IMG/VR virus record: IMGVR_UViG_3300036944_000605 | Coordinates: 1 to 47,010 of that record | Origin: a virus | Strand: one strand, 5' to 3' | DNA length: 47,010 nt | In this document: piece after piece, positions 5,054-47,010 of the stretch | Layout of the letters: each line of letters starts with the position of its first letter | Position numbering within the stretch: the first letter of the stretch is position 1 | Program-made: the position numbers and the translations under genes | Notes under the pieces: generated by a model | What the model was told of the DNA's origin: nothing | The model's input: only the letters and a program-made list of their open reading frames with translations | The model's database searches: none

Positions 5054-5072
5054 AGTGTTCTCTCTTTGTTTC

Positions 5073-5089
5073 TGTGACACGGTGTCACA
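5073..5089. promoter_or_regulatory. palindromic operator-like site A
   Basis: TGTGACAC-G-GTGTCACA is a perfect 8-bp inverted repeat with one central base. It fills the short gap between the 564-aa gene and the metallopeptidase gene, ending 20 bp before the peptidase ATG. It is one of six near-identical sites on this arm. Its symmetry and position suggest a binding site for a dimeric regulator; as RNA it could also form a 6-bp stem near the ribosome-binding site. Confidence 0.7.
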
Positions 5090-5090
5090 C

Positions 5091-23719: not shown

Positions 23720-24387
23720 ATTACAGTGCGCTAGTCACAGCGATCTCCGACTACACGGAGAACACGTTTCCGACATCTGCGATGAACACGTTCATTACGC
23801 AGGCAGAGCAGCGCATCTACAACACCATTCAGTTCCCCTCGCTTCGCAAGAACGTCACGGGCACGGTGACGGCCAGCAACAAGTACCTGTCCTGCCCGGA
23901 TGACTTCTTGGCGGTGTACTCAATTGCGGTGTTCCCCGTGGCCGGTGGCGATTACACGTTCCTGCTGAACAAGGATGTGAACTTCATCCGCGAGGCTTAC
24001 CCAAACCCAACGAGCACCGGGCAGCCAAAGTACTACGCATTGTTCGGCCCAACAACCACCTCTGGTTCACCACCTGTGCCGACAAACGAGTTGTCGTTCA
24101 TCCTCGGCCCAACGCCGGACACAACGTACACCGCAGAGCTGCACTACTTCTACTACCCAGAGTCGATCACTACGGCCCTGACTACGTGGCTGGGCGACAA
24201 CTTTGATTCTGTACTGCTGTACGGTTCTCTGGTGGAAGCCTACACCTACATGAAGGGCGAGCAGGACATCATCGGCTTGTACAACGACAAGTTCAAAGAC
24301 GCCATTATTTTGGCCAAACGTCTGGGTGATGGTATGGAGCGTCAAGACGCCTACCGCAGTGGCCAATACCGCCAACAGGTGACCTAA
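23716..24387 (+). CDS. neck / tail-adaptor protein, 223 aa
   Basis: Features include FITQAEQRIYNTIQFPSLRK near residue 26, CPDDFLAVYSIAV, a middle beta region ending FILGPTPDTTYTAELHYFYY and the C-terminal LLYGSLVEAYTYMKGEQDII. The pattern of an N-terminal helix, QRIxNxIQxPxLR and ALLYGxLxEAxxxMKGE is that of a neck protein family found with the gp4-like adaptor in podoviruses. The two proteins probably form successive rings under the portal. Confidence 0.7.
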   Translation: MNYSALVTAISDYTENTFPTSAMNTFITQAEQRIYNTIQFPSLRKNVTGTVTASNKYLSCPDDFLAVYSIAVFPVAGGDYTFLLNKDVNFIREAYPNPTSTGQPKYYALFGPTTTSGSPPVPTNELSFILGPTPDTTYTAELHYFYYPESITTALTTWLGDNFDSVLLYGSLVEAYTYMKGEQDIIGLYNDKFKDAIILAKRLGDGMERQDAYRSGQYRQQVT

Positions 24388-25587: not shown

Positions 25588-28500
25588 ATGCCAGCAGTTG
25601 TAATAGCCCTAACCTCGGGCCCGCAGACAAAGTGGTTTGTCCCTGCGGACTGCAACAACATCCAGATCGAGATTATCGGTCCCGGAGGAGTAGCTGACGG
25701 CTCTGGCTCCTCTGGTGGCGGCGGTGCGTATACAAAGTTAACCTCGTTAGCAGTAACACCGGGGACATACCTTACCTACAACGCCAGCGGCGGCTCCGGT
25801 GCTGCTGCATGGATAAGCAACACGGGGGTAGCGCCACTAAACACGTCGCAAGGAGCGTTGGCCGCAGGGGGGAGCGCATCATCTGAAGGGCTAGCGTCTA
25901 GCTGTATCCCATCGGCAGGGGCTTTTAGTGGTGGCCCAGCAAATACTGGCGGTAGTGCAGGTGGCGGGGATTCACTTGGTGGCGGCGGGGGTGCTGCGGG
26001 GCCAAACGGCGCAGGTAAAGCCGGAGGAAATTCTTTCGGGGGAACGCCCGGTGCTGGCGGTGGCGGTGGTGGAGCAAATGGCGGCTCTTCAACCGCAGGC
26101 GGAGACGCTGTATCTGACTTTGTTGGTGGGGCGGGGGGTAATGGGCGTGGCGGTTCAGGAGGGGGCGCTGCAGGGAGTCTCTCGGTTGGAGGCAACGCTA
26201 CAGCGGGTTCCGGCGGTGGCGGTGGCGGTGGCTCTGACGGGTTTAACGGTGGAGCAGCTGCCCAAGATAACATTTGGACCGACTATTTAGGTAATGTTTA
26301 CGGCCCCGGCGGCGGTAGTGGTGGGGGTGGCGGAAGTGGTGGAAGTGGCAACACCCCCGCAAGTGCAGGTTATGGCGGCGGTAATACGCAGAACCAAGGC
26401 CTAATCATTATCACCTACACCCCCGTGGCAATAACGGGCGGGCCGTACACCGAAGCGTTTACCATCCCTTATGGTTTAACGAGCAGTATTCCTTGGCGCA
26501 CACCGCTGGGGGTCACCTCTGTACAGGTAGAGGCAATTGGCGGAAGCGGCGTACCACTAAACGCTATATCCGGTCGCGGGGCCGGTGGCGGCGCCTATGC
26601 AAAAACTACGTCTCTTACCGTAACCCCTGAAGACGTAGCGTACGTCCGCCCCGCCCCAATAATCATCCCTGCCGTATACGGAACGGCTGTTGACTCTTGG
26701 TTTAACAGAAACGCTAACTCCGCGCCGGGTACTACAACTGCCGGTGTGCTTGCGAAGGGTGGCGCGTCAGGGCTTGGAGGAACCGCAGCGAGCTCTATTG
26801 GTGTAGACCTGACGTACAGCGGTGGTAACGGCGGCTTAAACAACACTACGGCGTCGGGTGCTAAGTTTCGTGGCGGTGGCGGTGGCGGTTCAGCAGGGCC
26901 AAGTGGTGCAGGTAAGAACGGCGGCAATGGTTGGAACACAGGCACCGGTTCTGGCACGGGCGGAGGTGGCGGCGGCTCCAATGGTGGCTCTTCGACCGCA
27001 GGTGCAAACGCTCCCAGCGCAACTGTTGGCGGAGCTGGGGGTAACGGTACTGGGGGGACTGGCGGTGGCGCGGGCGGCACCTCTACAACAAACGCTGTTA
27101 ACGGCACCACAAATACAGGAGCAGGCGGTGGTGGAGGTTCTGCAAGCGCAACATCGTCTAGATACAACGGAGCATTCGGGGCTACATCGACGGTATGGAC
27201 GGTCAACGGTGTAACTTACGGGCCGGGCGGTGGTGGAGGTGGTGCCGGGTGTACTGCAACTACTACCGGGGCAGGACGCAGCGGAGATAACTACGGCGGA
27301 GGCGGCGGAGCAGGCATTTCAAGTAATGCAGCAGGGCAGAGCCAAGGCCTTGTCATCATCACCTACAGTGCGGTAGCCCCAACCGTGGTAACGGTGGCTA
27401 TTACAGGTGTAGCAGCCGCTGGTGTTGTTGGTACCGTAGCTGAAACTAACGCCCCGACTGAGAATGGCAACGTAGCTTTTGGTGCAGTTGGTACTGTAGG
27501 AAAAACCCGTACAAAAGCTCTCACAGGCGTAGCAGCTGCTGGCGCCGTAGGCACGTTATCCCCAAGCATCTCAGTTTCAATCGTTTCGAGCTGGGGTTCT
27601 GGTGCGTGGGGCTCAGGCACTTGGGGTGGGGCTATCGCAGCAGCTACTGGCGCAGTCGGCTCTGTCACGGAAACCAACTCGCCAACTGAGAACGGCAACG
27701 TAGCTTCTGGGGCAGTTGGCACTGTGGGGAAAACCCTTACAAAAGCCCTTACAGGTGTAGCTGCCTCGGGTGCAGTTGGCACCGTAAAAAGTAGTCAGGC
27801 GCTTGTGGGCAGAAGTGCTGCAGGTGCAGTCGGCTCCGTATCTGAAACTATCGCAGTAGCACTTACAGGCGTAGCCGCTGCAGGCGCAGTTGGCTCAGTT
27901 GCGGAGACCCTCACAAAAGCACTCACGGGCGTATCCGCATCTGGAGCGGTCGGCTCCGTCACGGAAACAAACTCTCGCGCTGAAAATGGCAATGTAGCCT
28001 TTGGTTCGGTTGGTACCGTAACAAGTAGCCAAGCTCTATCGCGGACCCTCACAGGCGTGGCCGCTGCAGGCGCAGTAGGTTCCTTAACGCCAAGCACTTC
28101 TGTCTCCATAGGCTCCAGTTGGGGTTCGGGTACTTGGGGGTCTGGTTCTTGGGGTGGAAGCGCGGCAATATCTGGGCAGGTTGGGGCTGTAGCCGAGACC
28201 CTGACAAAAGTTCTTACGGGCGTAGCTGCATCCGGTGCCGTCGGTTCTGTATCAGAAACGCTCACAAAGGCGCTCACGGGAGTTGCAGCCGCAGGAAACG
28301 TCGGCACAGTAACTGAAACCAACTCCCGAGCTGAGAACGGAAACGTAGCGTTTGGTTCGGTCGGTACTGTAACGAGTAGTCAGGTTTTATCTAGGGCACT
28401 TACCGGTGTAACAGCCACGGGCGGTGTCGGTCAACTTGCGCCTAGCACTACAGTTTCAATCGTCCCAGCATGGGGTTCCGGCGCTTGGGGGTCTGGTTCT

Positions 28501-30036
28501 TGGGGTGGCTCTACTATTGCAGCCACAGGAAACGTCGGCACAGTTGCAGAGAACATAACAAAAGCGCTTGCTGGCGTAGCTGCATCAGGCGCTGTCGGGT
28601 CAGTATCGGAAACCTTAACAAAAGCCCTCACAGGTGTGGCTGCCTCCGGGGCTGTCGGCTCCGTAGCAGAGTTCATATCGCAGGCCCTTACAGGTGTAGC
28701 TGCTTCTGGCGCCACGGGCGTAGTATCGAGTAGTCAAGCTCTTGTGGGGCGGGCTGCTTCCGGGGCTGTTGGCTCCTTAACACCAAGCATTTCCGTTTCA
28801 ATCGTCCCAAGCTGGGGCTCGGGTGCTTGGGGTTCTGGTTCTTGGGGCGGAACTATTGCAGCCGCTGCAGGCGCAGTCGGGTCAGTAACCGAAACTAACT
28901 CTCCGACCGAAAACGGAAACATAGCTTTTGGTGCAGTCGGCACCGTAACAAGCAGCCAAACTCAGTCTCGGGCACTCACAGGGGCAACCGCTTCCGGTGC
29001 AGTTGGGCAGCTCACGCCCAGTACTACGGTTTCCATAACTAAAAGCTGGGGCTCGGGCTCTTGGGGTTCTGGGTCTTGGGGTGGGAGTATTGCAGCGGCG
29101 GCAGGAAACGTCGGCAATGTATCGGAATCTGTAACACGGGCACTCACAGGGGTAGCCTCCTCCGGCTCGGTCGGTCAGCTTGCACCTAGCACTACGGTCT
29201 TTATCGTTCCGGCATGGGGCTCTGGCGCTTGGGGCGCAGGCAGTTGGGGTGGGTCTACCGCAGCGGCCAATGGTAGCGTCGGGCAGGTTGTCTACGGCCC
29301 TCAACTATCTGGTGTCCTTGCCTCTGGAGCAGTTGGAACACTCGGGTTCAACAAGTCGTTTGCTCTCACAGGCGTAGCAGCTTCTGGGGTTGTCAATAGT
29401 GTAGGAAAAACTAGCACTACCGCATTGAACGGGGTGTCTGCCTTCGGCGAGGTGGGGGATGCTAGGCTTAGAACACTAAGGGGTGTGGTCGCCATTGGTG
29501 CAGTGGGTGACTTGGCAAACGACCGCACGGTCGCACTAACAGGGGTGACCTCCGATGCCGCAGCCGGGTATATCACCGCAGTAAAAGCGCTGGTACTGCA
29601 AGGCGTACAAGCCACAGGTAGTGTCGGCGTCCTCGGAGTTACAAAGTCTTTCTGGGACATCATCGACGATGCGCAGAATGCTGACTGGGCAGTAATACAG
29701 GATGGCCAGACCCCGAACTGGGCCGGTATCAATGACGCGCAGAATCCCGGCTGGGCACCGATTTCCAACCCCCAGACTCCGGGCTGGACTGGGGTTGACG
29801 ATTCTCAAAACGCTGGATGGCAACCTGTGGTTGACACACAGTCACCCAACTGGAGTACACTAAGCAGTGCGCAGAGCGCAAATTGGGGAACCGTGCCAAA
29901 TACACAGGCGGCTGGTTGGTCTCAAGTGAGTGATGCGCAAACGGCCAATTGGCAACCAACCGAAACCACGCAACCGGCAAACTGGGGCGAAATCAGCACG
30001 GAGCAAAGTGCTGACTGGCAAGAAGTAACAACTTGA
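25588..30036 (+). CDS. giant repetitive tail fibre / adhesin, 1482 aa
   Basis: Residues about 1-280 and 285-595 are two copies of a glycine-rich module, each ending GLIIITYTPV or GLVIITYSAV, with runs such as GGGGGGSDG like polyglycine-II adhesins. Residues about 600-1350 are some 20-aa units of the type ALTGVAAAGAVGSVxETLTK, interrupted six times by a WGSGxWGSGxWGG block. Residues 1356-1482 are eleven 11-residue units starting with Trp and carrying an invariant Gln. It is probably the receptor-binding fibre or a surface adhesin of the virion. Long near-identical DNA repeats make it prone to recombination and to assembly error. SD weak (AGGGG). Confidence 0.75.
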   Translation: MPAVVIALTSGPQTKWFVPADCNNIQIEIIGPGGVADGSGSSGGGGAYTKLTSLAVTPGTYLTYNASGGSGAAAWISNTGVAPLNTSQGALAAGGSASSEGLASSCIPSAGAFSGGPANTGGSAGGGDSLGGGGGAAGPNGAGKAGGNSFGGTPGAGGGGGGANGGSSTAGGDAVSDFVGGAGGNGRGGSGGGAAGSLSVGGNATAGSGGGGGGGSDGFNGGAAAQDNIWTDYLGNVYGPGGGSGGGGGSGGSGNTPASAGYGGGNTQNQGLIIITYTPVAITGGPYTEAFTIPYGLTSSIPWRTPLGVTSVQVEAIGGSGVPLNAISGRGAGGGAYAKTTSLTVTPEDVAYVRPAPIIIPAVYGTAVDSWFNRNANSAPGTTTAGVLAKGGASGLGGTAASSIGVDLTYSGGNGGLNNTTASGAKFRGGGGGGSAGPSGAGKNGGNGWNTGTGSGTGGGGGGSNGGSSTAGANAPSATVGGAGGNGTGGTGGGAGGTSTTNAVNGTTNTGAGGGGGSASATSSRYNGAFGATSTVWTVNGVTYGPGGGGGGAGCTATTTGAGRSGDNYGGGGGAGISSNAAGQSQGLVIITYSAVAPTVVTVAITGVAAAGVVGTVAETNAPTENGNVAFGAVGTVGKTRTKALTGVAAAGAVGTLSPSISVSIVSSWGSGAWGSGTWGGAIAAATGAVGSVTETNSPTENGNVASGAVGTVGKTLTKALTGVAASGAVGTVKSSQALVGRSAAGAVGSVSETIAVALTGVAAAGAVGSVAETLTKALTGVSASGAVGSVTETNSRAENGNVAFGSVGTVTSSQALSRTLTGVAAAGAVGSLTPSTSVSIGSSWGSGTWGSGSWGGSAAISGQVGAVAETLTKVLTGVAASGAVGSVSETLTKALTGVAAAGNVGTVTETNSRAENGNVAFGSVGTVTSSQVLSRALTGVTATGGVGQLAPSTTVSIVPAWGSGAWGSGSWGGSTIAATGNVGTVAENITKALAGVAASGAVGSVSETLTKALTGVAASGAVGSVAEFISQALTGVAASGATGVVSSSQALVGRAASGAVGSLTPSISVSIVPSWGSGAWGSGSWGGTIAAAAGAVGSVTETNSPTENGNIAFGAVGTVTSSQTQSRALTGATASGAVGQLTPSTTVSITKSWGSGSWGSGSWGGSIAAAAGNVGNVSESVTRALTGVASSGSVGQLAPSTTVFIVPAWGSGAWGAGSWGGSTAAANGSVGQVVYGPQLSGVLASGAVGTLGFNKSFALTGVAASGVVNSVGKTSTTALNGVSAFGEVGDARLRTLRGVVAIGAVGDLANDRTVALTGVTSDAAAGYITAVKALVLQGVQATGSVGVLGVTKSFWDIIDDAQNADWAVIQDGQTPNWAGINDAQNPGWAPISNPQTPGWTGVDDSQNAGWQPVVDTQSPNWSTLSSAQSANWGTVPNTQAAGWSQVSDAQTANWQPTETTQPANWGEISTEQSADWQEVTT
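27592..29252 (+). repeat. coding repeats: ALTGV-type 20-aa units and six WGSG blocks
   Basis: Six copies of the block with core TGGGG(T/C)TC(T/A/G)GG encode WGSGxWGxGxWGG, near 27592, 28121, 28470, 28813, 29046 and 29215. Between them, units of about 60 bp encode ALTGVAAxGAVGxV(S/A/T)E-type repeats. Codons vary more than residues, which shows the repeats are old and selected at protein level. Confidence 0.8.
29653..30033 (+). repeat. eleven tandem 33-bp units encoding an 11-residue Trp/Gln repeat
   Basis: The unit is W-x-x-(I/V/L/T)-x-x-x-Q-x-(A/P)-(D/N/G), for example WDIIDDAQNAD and WAPISNPQTPG. Eleven full copies and a six-residue partial copy form the C-terminus of the giant fibre. Trp and Gln are kept in every unit while the DNA differs, so selection acts on the protein. 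Confidence 0.9.
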
Positions 30037-33815: not shown

Positions 33816-36149
33816 ATGAGTCTCCAGAAAGTCGTGTTGCGCCCCGGAGTCAACCGGGAGAACACTCGGTACACCAACGAGGGCGGTTACTACGAGTCGA
33901 ACTTGGTTCGTTTCCGCCAAGGCACGCCTGAGAAAATCGGCGGCTGGACGCTTATTTCCCCGAATACGTACGAAGGCATTTGCCGTTCTTTGTGGAATTG
34001 GACTACGCTAGTAGGCGCTAATCTGGTTGGCGTGGGCACAGAAGAGAAGTTCTATATCGAGCAGACGGGCGCTTACTACGACATCACGCCTATCGCCAGC
34101 ACGACCTCGTTGGGTACAAACCCCTTCAATGGAAACGGAACCATCGTTACCGTAACTGATGCTAACTACTCCCCTGCGGTAGGGGACTATGTTATTTTTA
34201 ATGGCGTGTCTGGCTTGGCCATCAGCGGCCAATACCAAGTTATTTCTGTCCCCACGGGCACTACATACACCATAGCAGCAGCAGTTTCCGGCATCGGGGG
34301 CGGTTCCGTAGCATACGCTTCGTACTTGGTAGGCGCTGTTACAACTACTACGTTGGGTGCTTTGGGTTGGAACACGGGTAGCTGGAACGACGGCACATGG
34401 GGCGGGGTTGGGCAAGTGACGAAAACACGCGGTGTCACCCTGTGGACGCAATACAACTTTGGCGAAAACCTGCTGTTCGGCCCCAAAACGGGCGCTATGT
34501 ACATGTGGAACGCCTCAACGGCACCTAACCTAGCCACACCCACTGCGGCGGCTATCACCAATGCAACACCGGGAGTCGTAACGCTTAGCACTACAGGCAC
34601 CACTTCCGTGCAGAGTTTGGCCAACGGTACGGCCATCATGTTTGAGACTACGGGCGCACTGCCACTCCCGTTGAAACCATTTACAACGTACTACACAACA
34701 AGCACCGGGGCTAACACATACACCCTGTCCCTAACTTCCGGCGGCGCGGCGATCAACACGACTTCCGCAGGTTCAGGAACCCACTCCGTTTCTATCCGTG
34801 CTATCCCTGTGTCGGCACTGACCGGCGCTTCGGACGTACCGTTGACACAGAACACCCTGCTTGTGTCCGACGCTAGCGATTTCACGTTTGTGTTTGGGTC
34901 TAATGACTACTTGAGCACTACGTACGACCCGATGCTTGTGCGCTGGTCTGACCAAGAGAGCCTGACAAACTGGACTCCGGCGATAACGAACCAGTCTGGC
35001 AGCTTGCGGCTGTCGCACGGCTCACAAATCCAAGCGGTACTACAAGCGCGGCAAGAGATTTTGGTTTTTACTGACGCTGCGGTTTACTCGCTGCAGTATC
35101 TTGGCGCACCATTCGTCTGGGGTTCTCAGATTTTGTCGGACAACATCTCGATTGTGGGTATCAACGCGGCTGTGTTTGCCAACGGCACCGCTTTCTGGAT
35201 GGGTCAGGACAAGTTCTACAAGTACGACGGTCGAGTGCAAACCCTACGCTGCGACCTGCTCCGCTTTATTTTTGACGACATCAACCGCACGCAATACAGT
35301 CAAGTTTTTGCCAGCACCAACGAGGGCTTCAACGAGGTCTGGTGGTTCTATTGCACGAGAGGCAGCACTACGATTGACCGCTACGTGGTGTACAACTACA
35401 CGGAAGATGTCTGGTACTACGGCTCAATGGCACGCACGGCATGGTTGGACTCGTCGCTGAGAAACTACCCTATGGCGGCAACCTATGCCAACAATCTGGT
35501 TTACCACGAGAACGGCGTGGACGACAACATTACCGGAACTGCCGTAGCAATCGACTCGTCCATAACCACATCGCAGTTTGATATAGGGGACGGCCACAAC
35601 TTCGCGTTTGTGTGGCGCATGCTGCCTGACTTGACGTTTGTTGGTTCTACGGCGGGGACTACCCCTAGCCTAAGCATACAGCTCCAACCGTTGCAGAACT
35701 CTGGCTCCGGGTACAACAACCCCAAGTCTGTCGGAGGGTCGTACGACCAATCAACGCCGTCCCCCGAGCAGAAAACACAGTTTTACGATGCAGCTGTAGT
35801 TGTGCAAAAAATGGTTGTTGGGCTACTACCCGTAGACCTGTACTACGACTTGAATGGGGATGGTGTAATAAGCTTACTGGACGCCACCGGGTTTTTAAAC
35901 CTATCCACGGGAACCACGCTAGCATACACACCAAACCCAGCGTCAATCTACACTTCTATTGCTGGCGAAGCCACAGGTACCGTAGTAGCTACCCAGACAT
36001 ACCCAGTCAGCCTAGATACCTTTACTGGCCAGTTGAATATCCGTGTGCGCGGTCGTCAGATGTCCATGAAAATTTCATGCAATACGCTGGGCACGCAGTG
36101 GCAGCTAGGCGCTCCCCGTGTAGACCTCCGCCCGGACGGAAGACGCTAA
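33816..36149 (+). CDS. packaged-DNA stabilisation protein, P22 gp10-like, 777 aa
   Basis: It begins MSLQKVVLRPGVNRENTRYT and continues GGYYESNLVRFRQGTPEKIG; the GVN(R/K)E...YxxxGGWYESxxVRFRxGxPEKIGGW pattern is the hallmark of the large gp10-like tail-hub proteins. Beta-rich, with LWTQYNFGENLLFGPKTGAM and a late GQLNIRVRGRQMSMKISCNT. In P22 this protein closes the portal and forms the platform for the needle and tailspikes. No strong SD precedes the ATG (38 bp from the divergent GIY-YIG start). Confidence 0.8.
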   Translation: MSLQKVVLRPGVNRENTRYTNEGGYYESNLVRFRQGTPEKIGGWTLISPNTYEGICRSLWNWTTLVGANLVGVGTEEKFYIEQTGAYYDITPIASTTSLGTNPFNGNGTIVTVTDANYSPAVGDYVIFNGVSGLAISGQYQVISVPTGTTYTIAAAVSGIGGGSVAYASYLVGAVTTTTLGALGWNTGSWNDGTWGGVGQVTKTRGVTLWTQYNFGENLLFGPKTGAMYMWNASTAPNLATPTAAAITNATPGVVTLSTTGTTSVQSLANGTAIMFETTGALPLPLKPFTTYYTTSTGANTYTLSLTSGGAAINTTSAGSGTHSVSIRAIPVSALTGASDVPLTQNTLLVSDASDFTFVFGSNDYLSTTYDPMLVRWSDQESLTNWTPAITNQSGSLRLSHGSQIQAVLQARQEILVFTDAAVYSLQYLGAPFVWGSQILSDNISIVGINAAVFANGTAFWMGQDKFYKYDGRVQTLRCDLLRFIFDDINRTQYSQVFASTNEGFNEVWWFYCTRGSTTIDRYVVYNYTEDVWYYGSMARTAWLDSSLRNYPMAATYANNLVYHENGVDDNITGTAVAIDSSITTSQFDIGDGHNFAFVWRMLPDLTFVGSTAGTTPSLSIQLQPLQNSGSGYNNPKSVGGSYDQSTPSPEQKTQFYDAAVVVQKMVVGLLPVDLYYDLNGDGVISLLDATGFLNLSTGTTLAYTPNPASIYTSIAGEATGTVVATQTYPVSLDTFTGQLNIRVRGRQMSMKISCNTLGTQWQLGAPRVDLRPDGRR

Positions 36150-36150
36150 T

Positions 36151-36450
36151 ATGGCACAGAAAAATGTAGTGGCCCCACGGCTGCCCGCTGTAACGCAAGC
36201 GTATGACCCAGTAATGATGAGTCAGCTGTTGAGCATATTGCGGCTGTACTTTAACCAGATGGACAACGCGGGGCCTATTGCAGCGTCGTCCCAATTCAAC
36301 GGTACCGATGTTGTGGCGGGGCTTAGTTTTGCACCGAATGCCGGAGCGTCTACCCCCAGTTTGCCAACTCAAGCCGATCTCGCTAATCTACGCGTTGGGG
36401 ACATCTATTACGATACCTCAGCAAGCAACGTACTGAAAGTAAAAACATGA
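36151..36450 (+). CDS. small conserved tail-hub-adjacent protein, 99 aa
   Basis: The product carries YDPVMMSQLLSILRLYFNQM, then FAPNAGAS and LRVGDIYYDTSASNVLKVK. The LxxLLxxLRLYFNQLDN...LxxxRVGDxYYDTSxxNVLKVK pattern regularly follows gp10-like genes in related phages. It is a small virion or assembly protein of unknown function. The gene starts one base after the gp10-like stop and overlaps the next start (ATGA). Confidence 0.7.
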   Translation: MAQKNVVAPRLPAVTQAYDPVMMSQLLSILRLYFNQMDNAGPIAASSQFNGTDVVAGLSFAPNAGASTPSLPTQADLANLRVGDIYYDTSASNVLKVKT

Positions 36451-38465
36451 GCCTCCAACTCACCGCAAACCACCTAGCTGCTCAGGGTCGCAACGGCGAC
36501 TCTATGTTGATGCACGTCACGCCTCGGGAAGTCTCCGGGCTGCAGGCGCTTGCACAGAACTACGGCGGTTCATTGACGGTCAACCCCCAAACGGGTTTGC
36601 CAGAGGCCAACTTCCTTGACGATATTGGTCTTGGCGAGGTAAACAAGTTTGTGCCCGCCATTGCTGGCGCGGGGCTTTCGTTCTTCTCCGGCGGCGCGAT
36701 CGACCCGATGACTGCTGCAGGTATGGTTGGTGGTTTGGCAGGACTCACTTCTGGAAACTTGGCAGAGGGCATCAAGGCGGGTCTGGGTGCGTACGGTGGG
36801 GCCAGTCTGACAGGTGCTTTGGGCGCAATGGGTGGAGCTTCCAATGCCAGCGCTGCGGCGCAGGCCGCAGATGCAGGAGCAACCGGACCTCTTTCGGGTT
36901 CCGCTTTCAGTAACGCCGCCGCAGCGCCGGATGTAGGTGCCGGGTTTGATGCAGCCACGGGTTCTTTTACCGCAGCCAAAGACTTCCTGAAAGACAACAA
37001 GTACGCTGTAGGTGCCGCCGCGCTCCCCGCGCTTATGGGTGCTATGGAGGAAGACTCCGGCCCAACCGCGCTCAAGAACAAAGGCTACATCCGCCGCTAC
37101 GCTAAAAACCCCGTGACCGGCGCACTGGAGCAAGTTGAAGCCGTGCCTGTGGATGACTGGGGCTCTCGTCCTGCAGTCGAGTTTGGCGGCGTGGGCAAGC
37201 CCGTTAAGTACGATGAAGGCGGCGTCGTGGGTGACACGCCCAAGATAAAACAAGACCCGTTTGGGGGCGGCTACCTCGTCTATAACGAAACCACCAAAAA
37301 GTACGACCGCGTGGATGCAAGTGGTAAGACTACTCCCGCCGCAGCGCTTAATTCTGCAGGGGCACCTGCCGTTGAGTTTGCTGCCCCGCCCAAACGCCCG
37401 CCCGTGATGCGTGACCCTAATGACACCCGTACGGACTCCCAGAAAGCCTACGACTACCTCATGGGCAAGACCGGCGCTACCAACCCGATGCTGTTCTATC
37501 ATGACCAAGGCGCGGGTACAACCGGGCCAGCAGACGCTGCGGTACCGCTGGATATCAACACACGCACGGGCGGTCGCTACGTAATAAACAAAGACACGGG
37601 CTCCTACGACTGGGTACCAGACGTTTCTACCGATTTAGGTTTGGCAGCTCTCGAAGCGGGGCAAAATCGCGGTAACGGGTACACAGCTCCCGATCAATCC
37701 AGTGAAACCTTAGGAAACATGGGGCTTGTCGCACTCAGTAAAGTTGACAACCTTTTTAGCCCACCCGTGACGGCTGAACAAGCTGCGGGGGTAGACGTGC
37801 GCGATTTCAATGGAATCCCCGTAGCAAGTGACTTCGGTTTAACCGCACAAGCCCTCGCGGACTCTCACGACTTTGGCCCGACGGCACAAGCCAACGGTTT
37901 CGGAACTATCGGCGTTAACGGCTACGGTAGTGAGTCTGGCGTTGGGGGTGACGGCGGGCGTTCGGGTAGTGATGGTGGGGTCGGTGGCGGCGCTCCTTCT
38001 GGCGGAAGTGCTGCCGGTGCAGCTGCTCGCGGTGGTATGGGTTTCGGCGGTACAGGAAGTGGCGTTGGTGGTGGTGGTAAGTATGGTGGCGGCGGCGACC
38101 CTTCTGGTGGTGGTCGAGACGGTAACGGTTCCCCTATGGCCGCTGGTGGCCTCACTGCGCTGGCATCTGGCGGGCTCGGTTCGCTGGGCGGCTACTCTGA
38201 TGGCGGGCAACTGCTCAAAGGCCCCGGTGATGGTGTTTCCGACAGTATCCCCGCTACAATCGGCAGGGGCAAACCAGCCCGACTGGCAGACGGAGAGTTT
38301 GTGATTCCCGCACGTATTGTTTCCGAACTGGGCAACGGTTCTACCGAGGCAGGCGCTAAGCAACTGTACGCAATGATGGCACGCATCCAAGCAGGACGCG
38401 CTAAGACAACAGGTAAAAACCAAGTGGCAAAGAACAGCAAAGCTGCTCGCCACCTACCCGCATAA
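36447..38465 (+). CDS. internal virion / ejection-type protein, 672 aa
   Basis: MLMHVTPREVSGLQALAQNY and a GGSLTVNPQTGLPEANFL segment near the N-terminus are typical of large podovirus internal proteins. Residues 60-140 are glycine and alanine rich and hydrophobic (FVPAIAGAGLSFFSGGAIDP), and 490-560 glycine-rich. The C-terminus GPGDGVSDSIPATIGRGKPA, then ARLADGEFVIPARIVSELGN and AKQLYAMMARI is a conserved phage end motif. It probably is ejected with the DNA or forms part of the core. Confidence 0.65.
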   Translation: MSLQLTANHLAAQGRNGDSMLMHVTPREVSGLQALAQNYGGSLTVNPQTGLPEANFLDDIGLGEVNKFVPAIAGAGLSFFSGGAIDPMTAAGMVGGLAGLTSGNLAEGIKAGLGAYGGASLTGALGAMGGASNASAAAQAADAGATGPLSGSAFSNAAAAPDVGAGFDAATGSFTAAKDFLKDNKYAVGAAALPALMGAMEEDSGPTALKNKGYIRRYAKNPVTGALEQVEAVPVDDWGSRPAVEFGGVGKPVKYDEGGVVGDTPKIKQDPFGGGYLVYNETTKKYDRVDASGKTTPAAALNSAGAPAVEFAAPPKRPPVMRDPNDTRTDSQKAYDYLMGKTGATNPMLFYHDQGAGTTGPADAAVPLDINTRTGGRYVINKDTGSYDWVPDVSTDLGLAALEAGQNRGNGYTAPDQSSETLGNMGLVALSKVDNLFSPPVTAEQAAGVDVRDFNGIPVASDFGLTAQALADSHDFGPTAQANGFGTIGVNGYGSESGVGGDGGRSGSDGGVGGGAPSGGSAAGAAARGGMGFGGTGSGVGGGGKYGGGGDPSGGGRDGNGSPMAAGGLTALASGGLGSLGGYSDGGQLLKGPGDGVSDSIPATIGRGKPARLADGEFVIPARIVSELGNGSTEAGAKQLYAMMARIQAGRAKTTGKNQVAKNSKAARHLPA

Positions 38466-38474
38466 GGAACAGTC

Positions 38475-39419
38475 ATGGCTGACCAAACAATCCAACAACA
38501 AGTAGGCTTTGCGCCTGAGATTGCCCCTTACGGGCAAGGTGTACTGGCCGGTGCTGCCACACAAGTGGGCAAAGAAAACCCCTACCAAAGCTACGCTGAC
38601 TGGGCAAGGTCTCAAGGTCTCAGCGGCGATCAGGTCGCCCAGTTTACCGACCTGCAGAAAACAGCTTTCCAAGGCGCTCAGGACTTAGGTCAGAACCAGT
38701 ACTCGAAGGATGCCGCTGCCGGACTGCAAAGTTTGTCAGGCCAGACGTTCGATCAAAACGCGGCGCAGCAGTACATGAACCCGTACATGCAGAGCGTGGT
38801 GGACATCCAGAAACGCGAAGCACAGCGCCAGTCCGGTATTCAGGGCACGCAGCAAGCTGGGCAGGCAACTTCTTCCGGTGCTTTGGGCGGCAGCCGAGAC
38901 GCCATCATGCGGGCAGAGCGCGAGCGTAATCTTGGCATGCAGATGAACGACATCCAAGCCCAAGGAAGCCAAGCCGCCTACACCAACGCCCAGAACCAGT
39001 TCAACACCCAACGCCAAATGGGCCTGCAAGGATACGCAGCGCTCGGCTCACAGGGGCAGAATCTGTACGGGCAGACCACAAACAACCTAGGTATACAAGG
39101 CCAGATGGGTGGGGTACAGCAGCAGCAAGTCCAAAACCTGCTCAATGTCGGTCAGCAGAACTACGCAGCGGAGCAGAACGACCCTTACAAACGGATTGGC
39201 TTCATGTCCGATATTGTGCGCGGGTCTCCCATGTCCGGCCTCGGTTCTACCATGTACACACAAGCCCCATCAACGCTTAACCAAGTAGCGGGTCTGGGAA
39301 CCGCAGCCGCCGGTCTGTACGGCGCGTACAACAAAGCCCAAGGGAACGCTAAGGGCGGAGCGATTAAAGACAAGAAGCCCGCCGGACTGCAGGCGCTGAT
39401 GCTCCACAAGATGGCATAA
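38475..39419 (+). CDS. internal virion core protein, 314 aa
   Basis: It is a Gln, Ala and Gly rich helical protein with YMNPYMQSVVDIQKREAQRQ near residue 96, followed by GGSRDAIMRAERERNLGMQM, and many Gln pairs. The YMNPYMxxVVD motif is found in internal core proteins of podoviruses. SD AAGGAACAGTC precedes it. Likely a partner of the neighbouring ejection-type proteins. Confidence 0.65.
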   Translation: MADQTIQQQVGFAPEIAPYGQGVLAGAATQVGKENPYQSYADWARSQGLSGDQVAQFTDLQKTAFQGAQDLGQNQYSKDAAAGLQSLSGQTFDQNAAQQYMNPYMQSVVDIQKREAQRQSGIQGTQQAGQATSSGALGGSRDAIMRAERERNLGMQMNDIQAQGSQAAYTNAQNQFNTQRQMGLQGYAALGSQGQNLYGQTTNNLGIQGQMGGVQQQQVQNLLNVGQQNYAAEQNDPYKRIGFMSDIVRGSPMSGLGSTMYTQAPSTLNQVAGLGTAAAGLYGAYNKAQGNAKGGAIKDKKPAGLQALMLHKMA

Positions 39420-39428
39420 GGAAACACC

Positions 39429-41255
39429 ATGTCCATTATGAACCCCAGCATGAACAAGATGATCGCCGATCTGGTGGGCATGCCGCCACAGCAGTTGGCA
39501 CAGTACGCTGCACAAAACAAAGACGACACTATGAAGTTCCTCGCCGCCAAAGCGGCCAGTGACATGCAGAAAAAACAAATGGCTATGAGCGCAGCGCAGC
39601 AACAGCAGGCTGCCGCCCCTCCCGTGGCCGATCAAGTTGTAGATCAAATGGCTCAGGGTTTACCCGAAGAGTCAGGCATTGGCGCTTTGCCTGCCCCCAA
39701 CATGCGCGGGTACGCTGCGGGCGGTATCGTGGCTTTTGCCGATGGTGGGTTTAACAGCGATCTGTTCCGCAGGTTCCTAGAGAGTGTCGGTAGGACGGGC
39801 TCTGATTTTGCAAACGCGGACCCTATCACCAAAAAAGACCTACTGAACCAGTTTGGCCGAGCCACGTCTGGCCCCCAAATGTCTGTACCTGCACCAAGCG
39901 TACCCAGCGCCCCTGCAGCACCCGGAAACCCATACGCCCCAGCAACACCCGGCACAAGCTACGCAGACACAAAAAGCGCCCGAGGTGGAAGTATGCTTCG
40001 CCCCCTAGGAGCGGCAGCAACTAGCGGTGCTGGATTGGGCGTGCTTGCGGGCGGAAGTTTGCTGTCGCGGGCAGCCGCAGGTAACCTAAGTTCTCGCAGC
40101 GACGAAGAGCTGGATACGTTGTCCGAAGCAGGTGGCGGTGACGACACAGCGCTTGCCGCCGCGATCATGCGCGAAGACCGGAACACCCCAAGAAAAGCTA
40201 AGCCTGTAGAAAAAGAAAACTACCGTGGGTCAAAAGACGTTCCTTACACAGGCGCAGGCACGCCATCGTCTGCGACTGCGGCAATACGCAAAGGCGCTGT
40301 TCCACAAACAAGGCAGGGAGCCGGTTCCGGTGCTGTTGATGCACCCCGTACAGGTGCCTCCGGCGCAGGGATAAGCGCACTTGCTGCGCAGCAACCTGAA
40401 GAAACTTCGGAAGCAATGTTTGACCGTGTGTTGAAAAAGATGCCTGACGCCCGCGCGAACCTGCCAAAAGAAATTCAGGAAGCCGAAGACATCAAGACGG
40501 CACAGGCAAACAAAGAGCTGAAATCCGAAGAGGATGCAAAAGCGGGTTTAGCGTCTTTGCTGGGTAAGAGAGAAGCGCGTATCGGCGCGAGGGAACAGCG
40601 CATCGCTGACAAGAGCAGCAATGATGTCAACATGTCCCTGATCGACGCTGGTCTGGCCATGATGCAGTCCACCGGCAAGGGCTTAGCCGGTATTGCCGAA
40701 GGCGCTGGTGTGGGCATGAAACGCTACGCCGAAGAGTCTCGTCTGACGGAAGCAGCACGTCAGAAGGCCGAGGAAGCACGCGACGCGTACGACGACCTGA
40801 AATTCAACCGCGAAGACATGTCCCGCAAGCAAATCCTAGCTGCTGAAGGCAAGATTGCCGACGCCCGTGTCTTAACCAAGACCGCCACCATAGCTGAGAT
40901 TGCTCGACGCGAAGACGTTAACCTTAAAACAGCTGGAAAAATCTTTGAAGCAGAAGCCGCCAAGCAACTGCAGGGACAGACCCAGCGGTTCCAAGCCGGA
41001 GAAAATGCAAAAAACAGGGCTACGCAAGTTTCGGTGGCCAATGCACCTAATGGTCAAATGCAACTAGCCGCAGCGTTGGGCAACGGAAATCTTGAAGCTG
41101 GTATGCGCAAGATGACCGAGATCGCCGCAGGCAAGTTCAACATACAGGAAGCGTACTCTAACTACCTGCGGACTATGGGGCCGGGTGGTATGGGCGTGAG
41201 CCCACAAGAGTTTGCTGCACAGATTCGTGCGCTAGCCCCGCAAATACGCCCATAG
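39429..41255 (+). CDS. internal virion / ejection-type protein, 608 aa
   Basis: The N-terminus (SIMNPSMNKMIADLVGMPPQ) and IGALPAPNMRGYAAGGIVAF at about residues 81-100 match a motif set (P-x-NM-x-GYAxGGIVAFAxGG) that occurs in large virion proteins of such phages. The middle is low complexity, and residues about 320-520 form a long charged coiled coil. It probably extends the internal core or ejection conduit. SD AAGGAAACACC. Confidence 0.65.
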   Translation: MSIMNPSMNKMIADLVGMPPQQLAQYAAQNKDDTMKFLAAKAASDMQKKQMAMSAAQQQQAAAPPVADQVVDQMAQGLPEESGIGALPAPNMRGYAAGGIVAFADGGFNSDLFRRFLESVGRTGSDFANADPITKKDLLNQFGRATSGPQMSVPAPSVPSAPAAPGNPYAPATPGTSYADTKSARGGSMLRPLGAAATSGAGLGVLAGGSLLSRAAAGNLSSRSDEELDTLSEAGGGDDTALAAAIMREDRNTPRKAKPVEKENYRGSKDVPYTGAGTPSSATAAIRKGAVPQTRQGAGSGAVDAPRTGASGAGISALAAQQPEETSEAMFDRVLKKMPDARANLPKEIQEAEDIKTAQANKELKSEEDAKAGLASLLGKREARIGAREQRIADKSSNDVNMSLIDAGLAMMQSTGKGLAGIAEGAGVGMKRYAEESRLTEAARQKAEEARDAYDDLKFNREDMSRKQILAAEGKIADARVLTKTATIAEIARREDVNLKTAGKIFEAEAAKQLQGQTQRFQAGENAKNRATQVSVANAPNGQMQLAAALGNGNLEAGMRKMTEIAAGKFNIQEAYSNYLRTMGPGGMGVSPQEFAAQIRALAPQIRP

Positions 41256-41310: not shown

Positions 41311-44300
41311 ATGGCGCAAAGCGTTCCCCTCCCAGACGGTTCAGAAGTAACTATCAGAGCGGGGGAGACGCCCGAGTCTGCCTATGCTCGTGCAAAGCAG
41401 ATGTACCCTGAAGCTTTTGCCGTTGCAAAAGCACCCGAAGACGGTCCAAAGTCGGGCTTCATGCCCGCGCTCAAAGCGGGGTTCTCAGGACTCAAAAGCG
41501 ATGTAGCTGCACTCGCTGGCCGTACAGGCTTGATGGGGCTCCCAGAAGCCGAGAAGTACATTGCCGAGCAAAAGAAGTATCAGAGGGACACCTTTGCGCC
41601 GACTAAAGAAGGGTTTTTTGAAGCCCCGCTGGCCAACATCAAAGAGCTGGCTGGCGGTTCCATCCCCTACATGGTGGCCCCTCTTGCCGCTGGTGCAGCC
41701 GCACTTCCCGTAGCTGGCGTAGCCGGTACTGTGTTAGGTTTGGGTGCCGCAGGCGCTGCATCTGCCGCACAATTCACCGGCTCGGGCCTGACTCGCCAAA
41801 TGGAACCGGGCGAAGGCATGGCTAACAAAAGCCTTGGCGAAACCGATCTAGTCAATGCCGCGCTGGCGTCCATCCCTATGGCTGCGCTGGATACCGTGAG
41901 TATGCGGATGATTCCCGGCCTCGGTAAAATGTTTGAGCGGGCGGGCGTGAACCTGACCGCCAAAGCCGCCAACGACTTGGCCAAGGAAGGTATCAAGAAA
42001 ACGGCTGCGGACTACCTGCTGTCCACCGGCAAGACGATGGGTGTTGAGGGTCTGACCGAAGCCAGCCAACAGGTGTTCGAGCGTATGCAGGCGGGTCTGG
42101 CCATTGACAACCCAGCGGCCCGTGCAGAATACTTTGAAAGTTTCCTAGGCGGCGCTACTCTCGGCGGCATCTTGGCCCCTGTTGGCCGGTACGTTGAACG
42201 CGGTCAAGAGCAAACCCGTTTTGATGCAGGTGCCCGTGAGAAACAAATAGCCGACCGCGCCGCAGCCCAGACTGCCGCACAACAGGCCGCTGCCGAAGAA
42301 CAAGCACGGGTCGCTCAGGCCGAAGCCCAAGCAGCCGCCCAGAAGCAAGACCCCCAGTATGCGCTTCAGGCGCAACAAGACTACCTAGCTGCCGAACAAA
42401 CGCAGGCAGGTCTGCTGGCACAGCTCAAAAAGGGAACCAAAGAAGCGCCTTTGCTCGAAGCGGACAAGCAGGAAAATGCGGCCATCCAGCAGCAGTTGAA
42501 AGAGCACGCCGTCACCCTCAAGAAAACAGCGGCTGAGTTCAATGCAACCAAACGCTTCTTGCCCGTTACCACCGCGCCCACAACCACCGGCGAAACCCCA
42601 GCAGGCGAAGTCGCGCCCGCCGCACAACCCGTAGCTATCTCCCCTGAAGAAACGATCAAGCAGATCGAAGCGCAGATCGAAGCCTTGCAAACGCAGGCGC
42701 AAGGCGCAACCCCTGAACAGATCATCGAGTTCGGTGCCCAGCACAAAGAGCTGAAAAACCAGATCGCCAAAATCAAGCGCGTCACCGGCGCTATGAACAA
42801 GGCCAAGGAACTTGGCAAAATAGACCTCGCTGCCAAGCACGCCAAAACGCTGGCCGACCTGCAAAGCAAAGTGGTCATGCCTGCTGTTGAAACGGCAAAA
42901 CCTAATAGGTACGATGGGTCATCAACCCCTGCAACAGAAGAAGTCGCTACTACCGAAGCTACTACCGCACCAAAAGCCCGCAAGCCGAAGGCACCCAAAC
43001 CACTCAAGCCCTACACCGGTATTACCGAACAGGGGCTCATGTTCCCTGAGACTGGCGAAGCGGAGTCTGTTGTTAATTTGGGGCAAGGCAAGAACCCGAA
43101 TCAATCGCGTAAAGAACTCATCGCGGAGTTTCAAGCCGCCAAGCAGGTACGTGACCGCTTGGGTATGCAGAACGCTATCGAGAAAATGCGCACTCTTGCG
43201 CAGCGTTCGGACGCTCGCTCGGAAGCAGCACGGGGTAATGGGGTTCCTCAAGGCGAGCTGTCAAAAGGACTCCCCGCAATGATGGGGCAGAAGCTGACCG
43301 CCACAGGCTCACAAGCTCCTTCACGCGAACTAATCAACGCCGCCAAGATCGAAGTAACCCCAGAGACGCTGCGTCGTCAGGTCGAGTCTTTGCCCGAAAA
43401 CCTGTCGCCAGAGAACGAGCAGTTGGTGAACCGGATGCTGGGTAACTTCGACGAGTTCACTGCTGACCCAGAGCGTGCCCTGCTTGCGGCTGGTTTTCTG
43501 CAGGATGCGCGTATTGGTGCTCAGACTGCGCGGTCGCGTGACGTTGCACAAGAGTTGAGCCGGATTGAGGCGTCTAAGGCTTCTCCGACGTTGTTTAGTG
43601 AAGAAGAGACACCCGTTATCGAAGGCCCCCGCCAGCCGTTGCCTGTAACAGGGTACTCGGAAGAAAAAGCAGGCCCTGCCAAGCCTCCAGCCAAACCCGC
43701 CCTCGTACGGACGCCCCAAAAAGTCCCGCTGGCTGAACTTGAAGCAGCCGATGCTGCCAAACGCAAAGACCAGAACGAGCGTGCCGAGCGCCTTTCCGCC
43801 ATCCCCGGTGAGTCCATTTCGTTTGAGGCCTATAGAACGGCGCGTGACACCGTTGGGGATGTAGACACCGTATCCGCCAGATTGGAAGAGTTGAGCAAAA
43901 AAGCTGCTGACGAGTCTTTGCCAAAGGCAACCCGTAATAAAGCCCGCCGAGACGAACTTGCAATTCAGCGTTCGCAGAAATATATTGCCGGTTCAAACGA
44001 AGGCCTTGCAGCAACAAGAGCCGAAGCTGAAATAGCTTTGTCGAAACTTCTGGCCAAGATAGAAAACCAAGCGAGCCTAGTTGCGGAGAACCCAACCCCG
44101 TCACGCAAAAAAGAGTTGGCAAAATCAAAACGTGAGAAAAAGAAACTTGAGAGCCAAGTCAAAAGCTATAAGGAACGTGCGCAGCGCACCGCCCTAAACA
44201 CACCTACGGAAAAAGCAGCCAAAGCCGCTGACGCTCGTGCAGAGCGTTTCATGCGCCTACAAGAAGCGTTGGCCATCGAAGGTACTACAGGTGCGCTCCC

Positions 44301-47010
44301 TGCCCGTGAAGTCGGCCCCACAGTTCGCAAGGCGCAGGCTGCCGGTAATATCCTCAGCGGAGACACTGATACCACGAGGGAACGCACTATTGACCCCGGC
44401 CTCAAGCCAGAGCAGGGCGGCGCTGTCAGGCAACCCACGCCTGCAGAAATGCGGCAGATTATCCGGGAAGCCAGCGAGCTTGCCAACGCAAGAGTGAAAG
44501 CCAATGCACCACTGACAGCGGCACAAATCCGTGATCTGGATGTCGCCAACCAAGGCAGCCTGCTGGAAGCGGCGTTTAACATGCGTTCGGGGTTGGAGCG
44601 CAACAAGCGTGAGCTGCAAGAGAAAATGGACTTCTCGGCAAAGTCCCCTAACCTCAACGAAAAAAATACCATCCTACGCAAAGAACGCGAGATAGAGATG
44701 GAGCGCATCAACGGTGACCTGTACGTTGCCAGAGAAAATGAGAAAAAGCTGACCAAACTTTTTAGCGGTGAAGCGCCCGCAGAAGAAGCTCCCAAGACGG
44801 TAAAGAAAGCCAAGAAGACTCGCGCCCAAAAAGCAGTTGAGCAGGTTGAAGACGAGACTTTTGGTTTTGAATTTTCTCGCGGCAAACCGACAAACGCGTC
44901 TACAGTTGAGAGCGTTACAGCCGAGCTTGCCAAAGCAGGCGTCGTGATACCAAAAGAAAAAACGCACAGCGATAAAAAACCCGCAAAACTGACTGTGTTT
45001 AAGTCCGTTGACGACTTTACAAAAGCGTACCCGACAACCAAAGGTAAGGTTCCGTCAGATGCTAAAGGGCTTGTGTACAAAGAACAAGCCTTCTTATTTG
45101 CGGACAACATCGGTAAGGGCGAAGCGCTCGGTGTTATGCTGCACGAAGTCGGAGCGCACATCGGCTTCCGTAACTTTTTTAATCCGTCGCAGTACAACGC
45201 TATTTCCACCACGGTTAAAAACTGGGCTAAGCGTAATGACGGTTCTATTGAGTCCAAAATTGGTAAAGCAGCGCTTGCCCGTGTAGAAGCTGCGGAAACC
45301 CCCGCTGACCAAGTAGACGACGAAATTATTGCGTACGCCGTAGAAGAAGCTGTTAAGGCGGGTATCCAACCAACAGGTGCCGTTAACCGAACCGCCATAC
45401 ACAACTGGTTAAAAATGGTGGTCGATGCGTTTAAGAAAGCGCTCGCGGAATTTGGTATAAATCCCTCAGGCCTTAAAGCGGGCGACCTAGTTAACTTTGC
45501 TTACGGTTGTGCCCAATTGGAATTGCAAGGCACATGGCACGGCTCAGACGCCAAGTTTACGGCGTTTGATACAGCTTTTGCGGGGGAGGGTGAAGGGGCT
45601 TTTGATCGCCGCTTTGAACGCGAAAAATCGCTCGGTGTTGGGCCGTATGTAACCGCAGATAAAGACTACGCTGAGTATTATCAAACCGCAGTTACTTTTG
45701 GTAAGGCTTCCAACGCTACAGGTTACGGAGACATGTCGTACCAGCAGTTCCGTGACTTGGATGAGAAGTTTATTTCAACTAACGTTAGCGATTTGTCCCC
45801 CGAAGAACTGCGTACAAGATATGAATCTAATCTTTTGACACGCTATTTGCGCGGCGTGCAAGAAGGGGATTCAATAAACCCAAAAGAAAACAAAGCTGCA
45901 TCTGCGTATATTGCTGAAACTAAAGCACGTTTAGGAAGCGACATTGCCGACACCAAACAACGATTAGCCAAGTCCTTGATTGGGACTGGACTAAAAACAA
46001 TTAATGCAAAAGCACTATTAGAAAAAAATTTGGCAGGCACGCAAGCACGACTGGACGCCGTTAAAACCCTTGATGTCTCAAAAATAAAAGGACTCAAAGA
46101 GCGCCCCAAACAAGGCAACTTGTACCGCACATTGGATGCTGTTCCAGACGAGCGTGTGTACCAAGTTAACTCCTATTTTACGGTTGGCGATAGGCCAAAA
46201 CTTGATGCTTTACTGGAACAGTACGGCGACCAGTACGCTACACAACAAGCTGAAAGAGAAGGCAAGTACCCCGCCAATGGGTTGTTTTTTGACATGAGGG
46301 AAAAACTTGGCGTTGACGAGGCAACGCGAGTTCTCAAAGCTGCGGGCATAGATGCCATTGAGCAAAATAACGAAGGTGGCGCATACGTTGAGCGTGCTTT
46401 TATTGGCGTTAAGCCTGAAATATTGGGAACCAATTTGCAACCTATTGGCCCCGCTAAAGGCCCGTTGTTTTCCCGCGTTGCTAAGTACGAGTCCAACGAC
46501 GCTCTGTCCGAGTTGGCTGATCTGGTTGTTGCACGCCCCAAGACGTTGCGCGAGAAAGCGGGCTCCAACGTAGCGTTGCAACTAGAAATGCAAGTCGCCG
46601 ACATGCGCGCCGGTGTCATCAAGGCGCTGAACAACGCTGTGGAAGACCCGAACACTATGGGCAGTACACGGGAGTTCCGCCAAGCCATATTCAGCATTAC
46701 CGCTGCCGATCAGCATGGGGCCGTTACCCAGATGTCGCTTACCAACGGCCCGCCTGAAACGTTCAAGGACTCCAAAGGCTACTACGGAGTCCGCAGCTCC
46801 ATGAAGAACGGTGTGGGCGGCGTGTTTGAGGCTATCCAAGAAATCCCAGACAGCTACGGCAACACTGAAGCCAAGATGGGTCTGGCGTCCATATACATGA
46901 TTGCTCAACGTGCAATGAACAAGGGCTTGAAGAAGCTGGACTTAGGCGCTCTGGGTGTTACCGAAGCACAACTGTCAAGCGCTATGGCTGCGGCCAATGC
47001 CGACCCCAAG
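41311..47010 (+). CDS. giant polyvalent virion protein with zincin-like and ADP-ribosyltransferase-like domains, at least 1900 aa, 3' end missing
   Basis: One frame stays open from ATG 41311 (AAGGACATAGAA upstream) to the right edge. Residues about 114-160 are small-residue hydrophobic (SIPYMVAPLAAGAAALPVAG), as in ejected membrane-active proteins. A long Gln, Ala and Lys rich coiled coil follows. Residues about 1260-1390 include VMLHEVGAHIGFRNF (H1278, E1279, H1283), a metallopeptidase-like motif. Residues 1409-1690 include TWHGS (H1410), GEGEG, GVGPYVTADKDYAEYY (1442-1457) and, later, NGLFFDMREKLG and AAGIDAI, the pattern of polyvalent-protein ADP-ribosyltransferases. A further conserved helical domain follows. 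It is probably injected with the DNA and may act on host targets. Confidence 0.8.
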   Translation, partial: MAQSVPLPDGSEVTIRAGETPESAYARAKQMYPEAFAVAKAPEDGPKSGFMPALKAGFSGLKSDVAALAGRTGLMGLPEAEKYIAEQKKYQRDTFAPTKEGFFEAPLANIKELAGGSIPYMVAPLAAGAAALPVAGVAGTVLGLGAAGAASAAQFTGSGLTRQMEPGEGMANKSLGETDLVNAALASIPMAALDTVSMRMIPGLGKMFERAGVNLTAKAANDLAKEGIKKTAADYLLSTGKTMGVEGLTEASQQVFERMQAGLAIDNPAARAEYFESFLGGATLGGILAPVGRYVERGQEQTRFDAGAREKQIADRAAAQTAAQQAAAEEQARVAQAEAQAAAQKQDPQYALQAQQDYLAAEQTQAGLLAQLKKGTKEAPLLEADKQENAAIQQQLKEHAVTLKKTAAEFNATKRFLPVTTAPTTTGETPAGEVAPAAQPVAISPEETIKQIEAQIEALQTQAQGATPEQIIEFGAQHKELKNQIAKIKRVTGAMNKAKELGKIDLAAKHAKTLADLQSKVVMPAVETAKPNRYDGSSTPATEEVATTEATTAPKARKPKAPKPLKPYTGITEQGLMFPETGEAESVVNLGQGKNPNQSRKELIAEFQAAKQVRDRLGMQNAIEKMRTLAQRSDARSEAARGNGVPQGELSKGLPAMMGQKLTATGSQAPSRELINAAKIEVTPETLRRQVESLPENLSPENEQLVNRMLGNFDEFTADPERALLAAGFLQDARIGAQTARSRDVAQELSRIEASKASPTLFSEEETPVIEGPRQPLPVTGYSEEKAGPAKPPAKPALVRTPQKVPLAELEAADAAKRKDQNERAERLSAIPGESISFEAYRTARDTVGDVDTVSARLEELSKKAADESLPKATRNKARRDELAIQRSQKYIAGSNEGLAATRAEAEIALSKLLAKIENQASLVAENPTPSRKKELAKSKREKKKLESQVKSYKERAQRTALNTPTEKAAKAADARAERFMRLQEALAIEGTTGALPAREVGPTVRKAQAAGNILSGDTDTTRERTIDPGLKPEQGGAVRQPTPAEMRQIIREASELANARVKANAPLTAAQIRDLDVANQGSLLEAAFNMRSGLERNKRELQEKMDFSAKSPNLNEKNTILRKEREIEMERINGDLYVARENEKKLTKLFSGEAPAEEAPKTVKKAKKTRAQKAVEQVEDETFGFEFSRGKPTNASTVESVTAELAKAGVVIPKEKTHSDKKPAKLTVFKSVDDFTKAYPTTKGKVPSDAKGLVYKEQAFLFADNIGKGEALGVMLHEVGAHIGFRNFFNPSQYNAISTTVKNWAKRNDGSIESKIGKAALARVEAAETPADQVDDEIIAYAVEEAVKAGIQPTGAVNRTAIHNWLKMVVDAFKKALAEFGINPSGLKAGDLVNFAYGCAQLELQGTWHGSDAKFTAFDTAFAGEGEGAFDRRFEREKSLGVGPYVTADKDYAEYYQTAVTFGKASNATGYGDMSYQQFRDLDEKFISTNVSDLSPEELRTRYESNLLTRYLRGVQEGDSINPKENKAASAYIAETKARLGSDIADTKQRLAKSLIGTGLKTINAKALLEKNLAGTQARLDAVKTLDVSKIKGLKERPKQGNLYRTLDAVPDERVYQVNSYFTVGDRPKLDALLEQYGDQYATQQAEREGKYPANGLFFDMREKLGVDEATRVLKAAGIDAIEQNNEGGAYVERAFIGVKPEILGTNLQPIGPAKGPLFSRVAKYESNDALSELADLVVARPKTLREKAGSNVALQLEMQVADMRAGVIKALNNAVEDPNTMGSTREFRQAIFSITAADQHGAVTQMSLTNGPPETFKDSKGYYGVRSSMKNGVGGVFEAIQEIPDSYGNTEAKMGLASIYMIAQRAMNKGLKKLDLGALGVTEAQLSSAMAAANADPK

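Follow-up and report, generated by a model that had tools for sequence, protein, structure and literature searches.

The window, by which is meant the whole 47,010-base stretch of viral DNA analysed here, ends in a giant open reading frame whose product is best explained, with good confidence, as an injected polyvalent protein that combines a processing zincin with an exchangeable ADP-ribosyltransferase (ART) cargo. The protein belongs to a known class, the polyvalent proteins, of which it is a new and divergent member, and one of its features is possibly new. Homology, domain order, residue conservation, the exchange of cargo and the gene context were observed directly, and packaging, injection, the processing step and both catalytic activities are argued from knowledge of the family. 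On that view the protein would be a late product that is packaged inside the virion of a short-tailed phage and passes into the host along with the phage DNA. Its constant structural part would consist of the N-terminal ~400 residues together with a C-terminal LPD38 region (missing in the window), and the effector part would comprise a zincin-like domain carrying HEXXXH, behind which lies an exchangeable slot with, in this case, an ART-like domain. The most likely course is that the zincin cleaves its own polypeptide, which would free the cargo or switch it on, and that the ART ADP-ribosylates a host macromolecule as infection starts.

The giant gene and its setting

The giant ORF (41311..47010; on the + strand, as are all features of this gene and of the virion genes given with a range in dots below) starts with an ATG and runs for 1900 sense codons with no stop before the contig end. 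A record look-up gives the IMG/VR record a length of 47,010 bases, all of it in the window, and the gene is truncated because the record itself stops there. Complete ORFs found among relatives in IMG/VR scans encode 2875-3432 amino acids, and the 1900 residues of the window align within residues 1-2394 of the 3112-residue protein of relative L002. About 720 residues appear to be missing at the C-terminus, such that the window would hold the N-terminal ~70% of a polyvalent protein with a predicted full length of ~2,600 amino acids. The full-length relatives close with LPD38 (PF18857; Pfam E 3e-25 to 5e-31), a domain present in complete relatives and absent from the cut sequence of the window; in the intact gene it would be expected some 420 residues past the contig end. 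Across relatives the protein is alignable from residue 1 to ~415 and again over residues 1185-1900, the middle mostly not. Whole-protein searches with the giant protein against Pfam, PHROG, NCBIfam and PDB sequences gave no useful match. Taken domain by domain, the family appears to join several unrelated activities in one large polypeptide (zincin, ART and LPD38), as is characteristic of polyvalent proteins. The sole candidate membrane segment is a hydrophobic Ala/Gly-rich stretch of 31 residues at aa 120-150 (41668..41760; peak Kyte-Doolittle 1.72), and an equal threshold is reached there in only three of seven relatives, which leaves the membrane-active part proposed in the earlier, sequence-only reading of this DNA as a weak claim.

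Upstream of the giant ORF are terminase, portal and head protein genes, a gene for a virion structural protein (33816..36149; phrog_3287, annotated in relatives as stabilization/needle protein) and an ejection cluster that is syntenic with those of the sequenced phages DSL-LC04, Pag-Yong1 and HTVC027P. The first cluster gene (36447..38465) has homologous parts in all three phages, the second (38475..39419) has homologues in them and a weak hit to the DNA ejection protein family phrog_4287, and the third (39429..41255; 608 aa) is fast-diverging and was matched to them by its corresponding position. The annotations given in these phages to the gene that closes the cluster are DNA transfer protein, large polyvalent protein (in Pag-Yong1) and putative structural protein, and in L011, a close relative, the long ORF that follows the giant gene is encoded on the opposite strand. 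Judged by this gene order, the virion cluster ends with the giant ORF, which lies near late virion genes as expected of a polyvalent-protein gene; the sequence-only reading had likewise ended an internal-virion operon with this long frame. The suggestion made at the same time that the system might be undescribed did not survive, given that the class was defined by Iyer et al. 2017 (PMC5512222) and that the syntenic gene already carries the annotation 'large polyvalent protein'.

The nearest terminases, at ~50% identity, are those of Pelagibacter phages, phage 023Pt_psg01 and phage DSL-LC04. Isolate phages are nearly without close relatives of the protein, with only two weak peptidase matches among 50,697 records, and a genome-contig scan found no peptidase relatives in bacterial genomes. 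For a podovirus group of which very few members have been cultured, the ejection cluster can now be said to include a HEXXXH zincin and an ART of divergent sequence. Elsewhere in the window, a 1482-aa ORF among the virion genes (25588-30036) is without a PHROG or Pfam match, positions 23716-24387 give an SU10 adaptor protein match (PF24175, E 2e-22), and a predicted M28-type peptidase (PF04389, E 2e-7; phrog_4191) is encoded at 3914-5143 on the minus strand.

The zincin-like domain, the slot and the FSR motif

Sequence and structural model together support the domain at aa 1185-1404 (44863..45522) as a zincin-like metallopeptidase of the HEXXXH kind. Fundamental to this assignment is the candidate active-site helix HEVGAH (aa 1278-1283, 45142..45159; H1278, E1279, H1283), which spaces its histidines by four residues and is therefore HEXXXH, not HEXXH, a variant that is known for a set of polyvalent zincins from Iyer et al. 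2017 (PMC5512222). It is followed by the helix DDEIIAYAVEE (45316..45348), which carries E1338, the candidate third zinc ligand, together with Y1342, E1345 and E1346. These four residues and H1278, E1279, G1281 and H1283 are invariant in 51 relatives, and a dN/dS of 0.08-0.27 (against two relatives) places the peptidase under purifying selection. In the AlphaFold model of the domain (mean pLDDT 85, pTM 0.80) a helix, three strands, the HEXXXH helix and the helix with E1338 follow one another in that order (elements H15-24, E43-46, E67-72, E75-79); the predicted HEXXXH helix with a Glu in a later helix, and the three-stranded sheet with an N-terminal helix, reproduce the polyvalent zincin topology already described (PMC5512222). 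Searches for the domain in Pfam and NCBIfam gave no match, a PDB fold search found no match for the model among solved structures, and PDB sequence searches with the peptidase and ART alignments returned chance-level matches only. In a viral fold library the peptidase matched, at E 4e-18 and 57% identity, a protein labelled 'Large polyvalent protein associated domain' and, at E 4e-4, one with a MuF C-terminal domain.

Next to the peptidase lies a slot that, among relatives, holds an ART-like domain of the window type (E-type), a second ART-like type (D-type), an LPD23 module (PF18838, E 2e-20) or a third module, which starts SRRTFLRG, or else is nearly empty, with just ~20 residues. When slot content is placed on the peptidase tree at least 7 changes are needed, and well-supported branches alone force at least 3 for the E-type; L039 (E-type), for instance, clusters with L084 and L088 (D-type) at a support of 100/99. 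As these comparisons have it, the slot is exchangeable, its contents varying while the peptidase stays. In L126, around 5676-6191, the slot module begins MSRRTFLRGAVAAVG and is without a Pfam match, and the same kind of MSRRTFLRGAVAAVG module is found in L123, L127, L129, L130, L136 and L143; its start looks like a Tat signal, with SRRxFLK and a hydrophobic stretch.

The peptidase may itself have moved. DNA identity between the window and L002 is ~37% before the first FSR motif (aa 1188-1190, 44872..44880), which marks the edge of the conserved module, jumps at this motif to ~95%, a level kept to about residue 1450, and then drops to mostly 80-90%. Between window positions 44872 and 45660 the peptidase-coding DNA is ~96% identical to that of L002, with a dS of 0.09 compared with 0.7-1.2 elsewhere, and this combination of high identity and low dS against the flanks suggests that the peptidase segment was recently exchanged.

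A second FSR motif (aa 1720-1722, 46468..46476) marks the downstream edge of the slot, and this copy follows full and almost empty slots alike. In 31 diverse members FSR was counted 46 times, where shuffled sequences would give 7.5, and (F/Y)S(R/K) lies 65-120 residues upstream of HEXGXH in 23 of 30 proteins, against 0.74 expected from other stretches of the same proteins, these counts being indicative in that the relatives are not independent. Unrelated polyvalent proteins have LFSR or LYSR before the zincin and DIR(F/Y)S(R/I) after the ART, strings for which (as DIRFSR/DIRYSR) no paper was found in the openly accessible literature. A role as a DNA recombination site was rejected, since the FSR codons vary synonymously, so that it is the amino-acid sequence rather than the DNA that is under selection. 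The motif is a candidate processing site of the built-in peptidase, with a structural edge strand as the simple alternative, and the zincin self-processing long guessed for polyvalent proteins thereby becomes a site-specific prediction, namely a cut at or near FSR, which if true would account for the way in which one conserved delivery protein carries different enzymes. The wider proposal, that peptidase and slot form a self-contained cargo bay in which FSR is cut by the HEXXXH peptidase and the enzyme is swapped between phages, a design general to phage polyvalent proteins, is put forward tentatively and is on balance doubtful.

Why should the zincin act upon its own polypeptide at all? It could instead be an effector protease directed at host proteins, with the ART as a separate effector, an alternative that Iyer et al. 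name and for which N4 virion RNA polymerase provides a parallel, having a zincin-type motif yet being packaged unprocessed (PMC5512222). A constant peptidase beside a changing cargo, with FSR at both ends of the unit, fits processing better, and a host-directed protease is accordingly considered unlikely.

The ART-like domain

The slot of the window is occupied by an ART-like domain at aa 1405-1718 (45523..46464), with the motifs WHGS (1409-1412), GEGEG (1425-1429), GVGPYVTAD (1442-1450), NGLFFDM (1656-1662) and AGIDAI (1678-1683). Within these, H1410 of WHGS (45538..45540) is the candidate strand-1 catalytic His and Y1446 of GVGPYVT (45646..45648) the candidate strand-2 Tyr, such that, with strands assigned by homology, the domain would have the His and Tyr of ART-PolyVal in their proper places. 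E-type sequences have WHGSDAxF and YVERA(F/Y)I, with 8 residues inserted between GEG and GxGPY, and D-type sequences have WHGTxxxF, GEGAQAFGxGTY and NYVDF; both H1410 and Y1446 are invariant across the two types in 27 ART relatives. The types are homologous (hhalign Prob 99.6), the Glu of YVERA pairing with the Asp of NYVDF, and the candidate strand-5 acid E1694 of YVERAFI (46390..46392) stands where ART-PolyVal and the D-type slot-mates have Asp.

Compared with a profile of Pfam-certified ART-PolyVal sequences, the window-type ART gives an hhalign Prob of 86-92 and a score of 48.9, against 14.0 +/- 2.5 and a maximum of 24.3 for 100 column-shuffled controls, with a match that spans the His/Tyr half and does not take in strand 5; the peptidase profile, as negative control, did not match the certified ART sequences. 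As a single sequence, the stretch aa 1400-1506 gives PF18760 with an E-value of 0.038 and 15.2 bits, below the gathering score of 31.2 bits, a score that no tested member of the window family reaches (best relative 19.9 bits); the certified sequences themselves give E 5e-16 to 3e-22. The sub-threshold match covers the equal stretch in 15 of 19 ART-slot sequences scanned, and L004, L012, L013 and L045 give no PF18760 match. The D-type aligns weakly with the certified ARTs (hhalign Prob 4.6), so that its link to the certified family runs via the window type and the single-sequence PF18760 matches. The ART model has no PDB fold match and, with a pLDDT of 36-54 over the His/Tyr strands, is too poor to weigh. 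It is very likely, on these comparisons, that the slot domain is homologous to ARTs, and ADP-ribosyltransferase would be its presumed activity; ART-PolyVal-like, rather than strict member, is the fitting name because of the Asp-to-Glu change and the sub-threshold PF18760 score.

The sequence-only reading had likened a series of HGS, GEGEG, GxGxYVTxD, NGLFFDM and AGIDAI, preceded by HEVGAH, to the polyvalent ART layout and a zincin. All of these motifs lie where it had placed them, the Tox-ART-HYD2/ART-PolyVal layout is supported, and the zincin-like part stands as the HEXXXH variant with E1338 conserved downstream. Of the profile similarities it had called for, that of the ART to certified ART-PolyVal was found, with PF18760 itself below threshold and the zincin unmatched in Pfam and NCBIfam, and the His and Gly residues on which it relied (H1278, G1281 and H1283 in the peptidase, H1410 in the ART) are retained in the 51 peptidase and 27 ART relatives compared.

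Both domains might still be inactive remnants within a very large gp16-like ejection protein that builds a DNA conduit, their folds acting as packing or spacer modules. This would suit a giant gene that is the last and largest of the ejection cluster, whose place in HTVC027P and DSL-LC04 is taken by proteins of 1342 and 1068 aa without HEXXXH or HGS motifs, and ejection proteins do differ widely in size and domain content (PMC8954989). However, the candidate catalytic residues are invariant where their surroundings fall to ~20% identity, and the ART, with a dN/dS of 0.11-0.18 (against two relatives), is under purifying selection as is the peptidase, which makes inactive remnants improbable. 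That the ART-like domain is of another fold, sharing WHGS/GxGxY by chance, would accord with the missing fold match and the sub-threshold Pfam score and is very improbable in view of a profile score well over the 100 shuffled controls, homologous slot-mates that also match PF18760, and an equal zincin-ART order with a certified ART in phage Y11.

Comparison with known systems

Iyer et al. 2017 (PMC5512222) had already set out the polyvalent class, the model of injected effectors, the zincins with HEXXXH and the H-Y-D type of ART; their proteins are likewise giant, multidomain and encoded near virion genes, with zincin, ART, LPD38 and HEXXXH. The window family differs in an ART too divergent for the Pfam cut-off and in its bracketing FSR motif, the words 'FSR' and 'linker' both being absent from the text of that paper (PMC5512222). 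As a model of action for an injected ART there is phage T4 Alt (PMC5512222), which, unlike the giant protein, is of the R-S-E class, not H-Y-D, and is no polyvalent protein. The N4 virion RNA polymerase is also an ejected protein of ~3,500 aa with a zincin-type motif (PMC12633501, PMC5512222), but it carries an RNA polymerase and its motif is HEXXH, the likeness noted here being one of size and motif.

A further comparison is with UMO75972.1 of Planktothrix phage Pag-Yong1, which is syntenic, is annotated 'large polyvalent protein', matches LPD38 (E 5e-35) and, weakly, PF18760, and is homologous over its C-terminal ~800 aa to the C-terminus of the L002 protein (23% identity, E 1e-34); unlike the window protein it is, by motif search, without the window-family HEXGXH/WHG module. 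Pseudoalteromonas phage vB_PalP_Y7 (locus L147, 126-14153) encodes a 4675-aa protein annotated DarB-like, whose ART shares 95% identity with the one in Shewanella phage vB_SbaS_Y11. These two phage proteins, annotated as DarB-like or methyltransferase, have peptidases only ~27-30% identical to that of the window, and that of Y11 also contains ddrB-ParB, LPD5 and LPD1; yet both Y11 WIF21962.1 and Y7 WPJ30526.1 present the same arrangement as the window protein, a HELGGH zincin and then an ART-PolyVal domain (certified in Y11), together with a KFSR motif.
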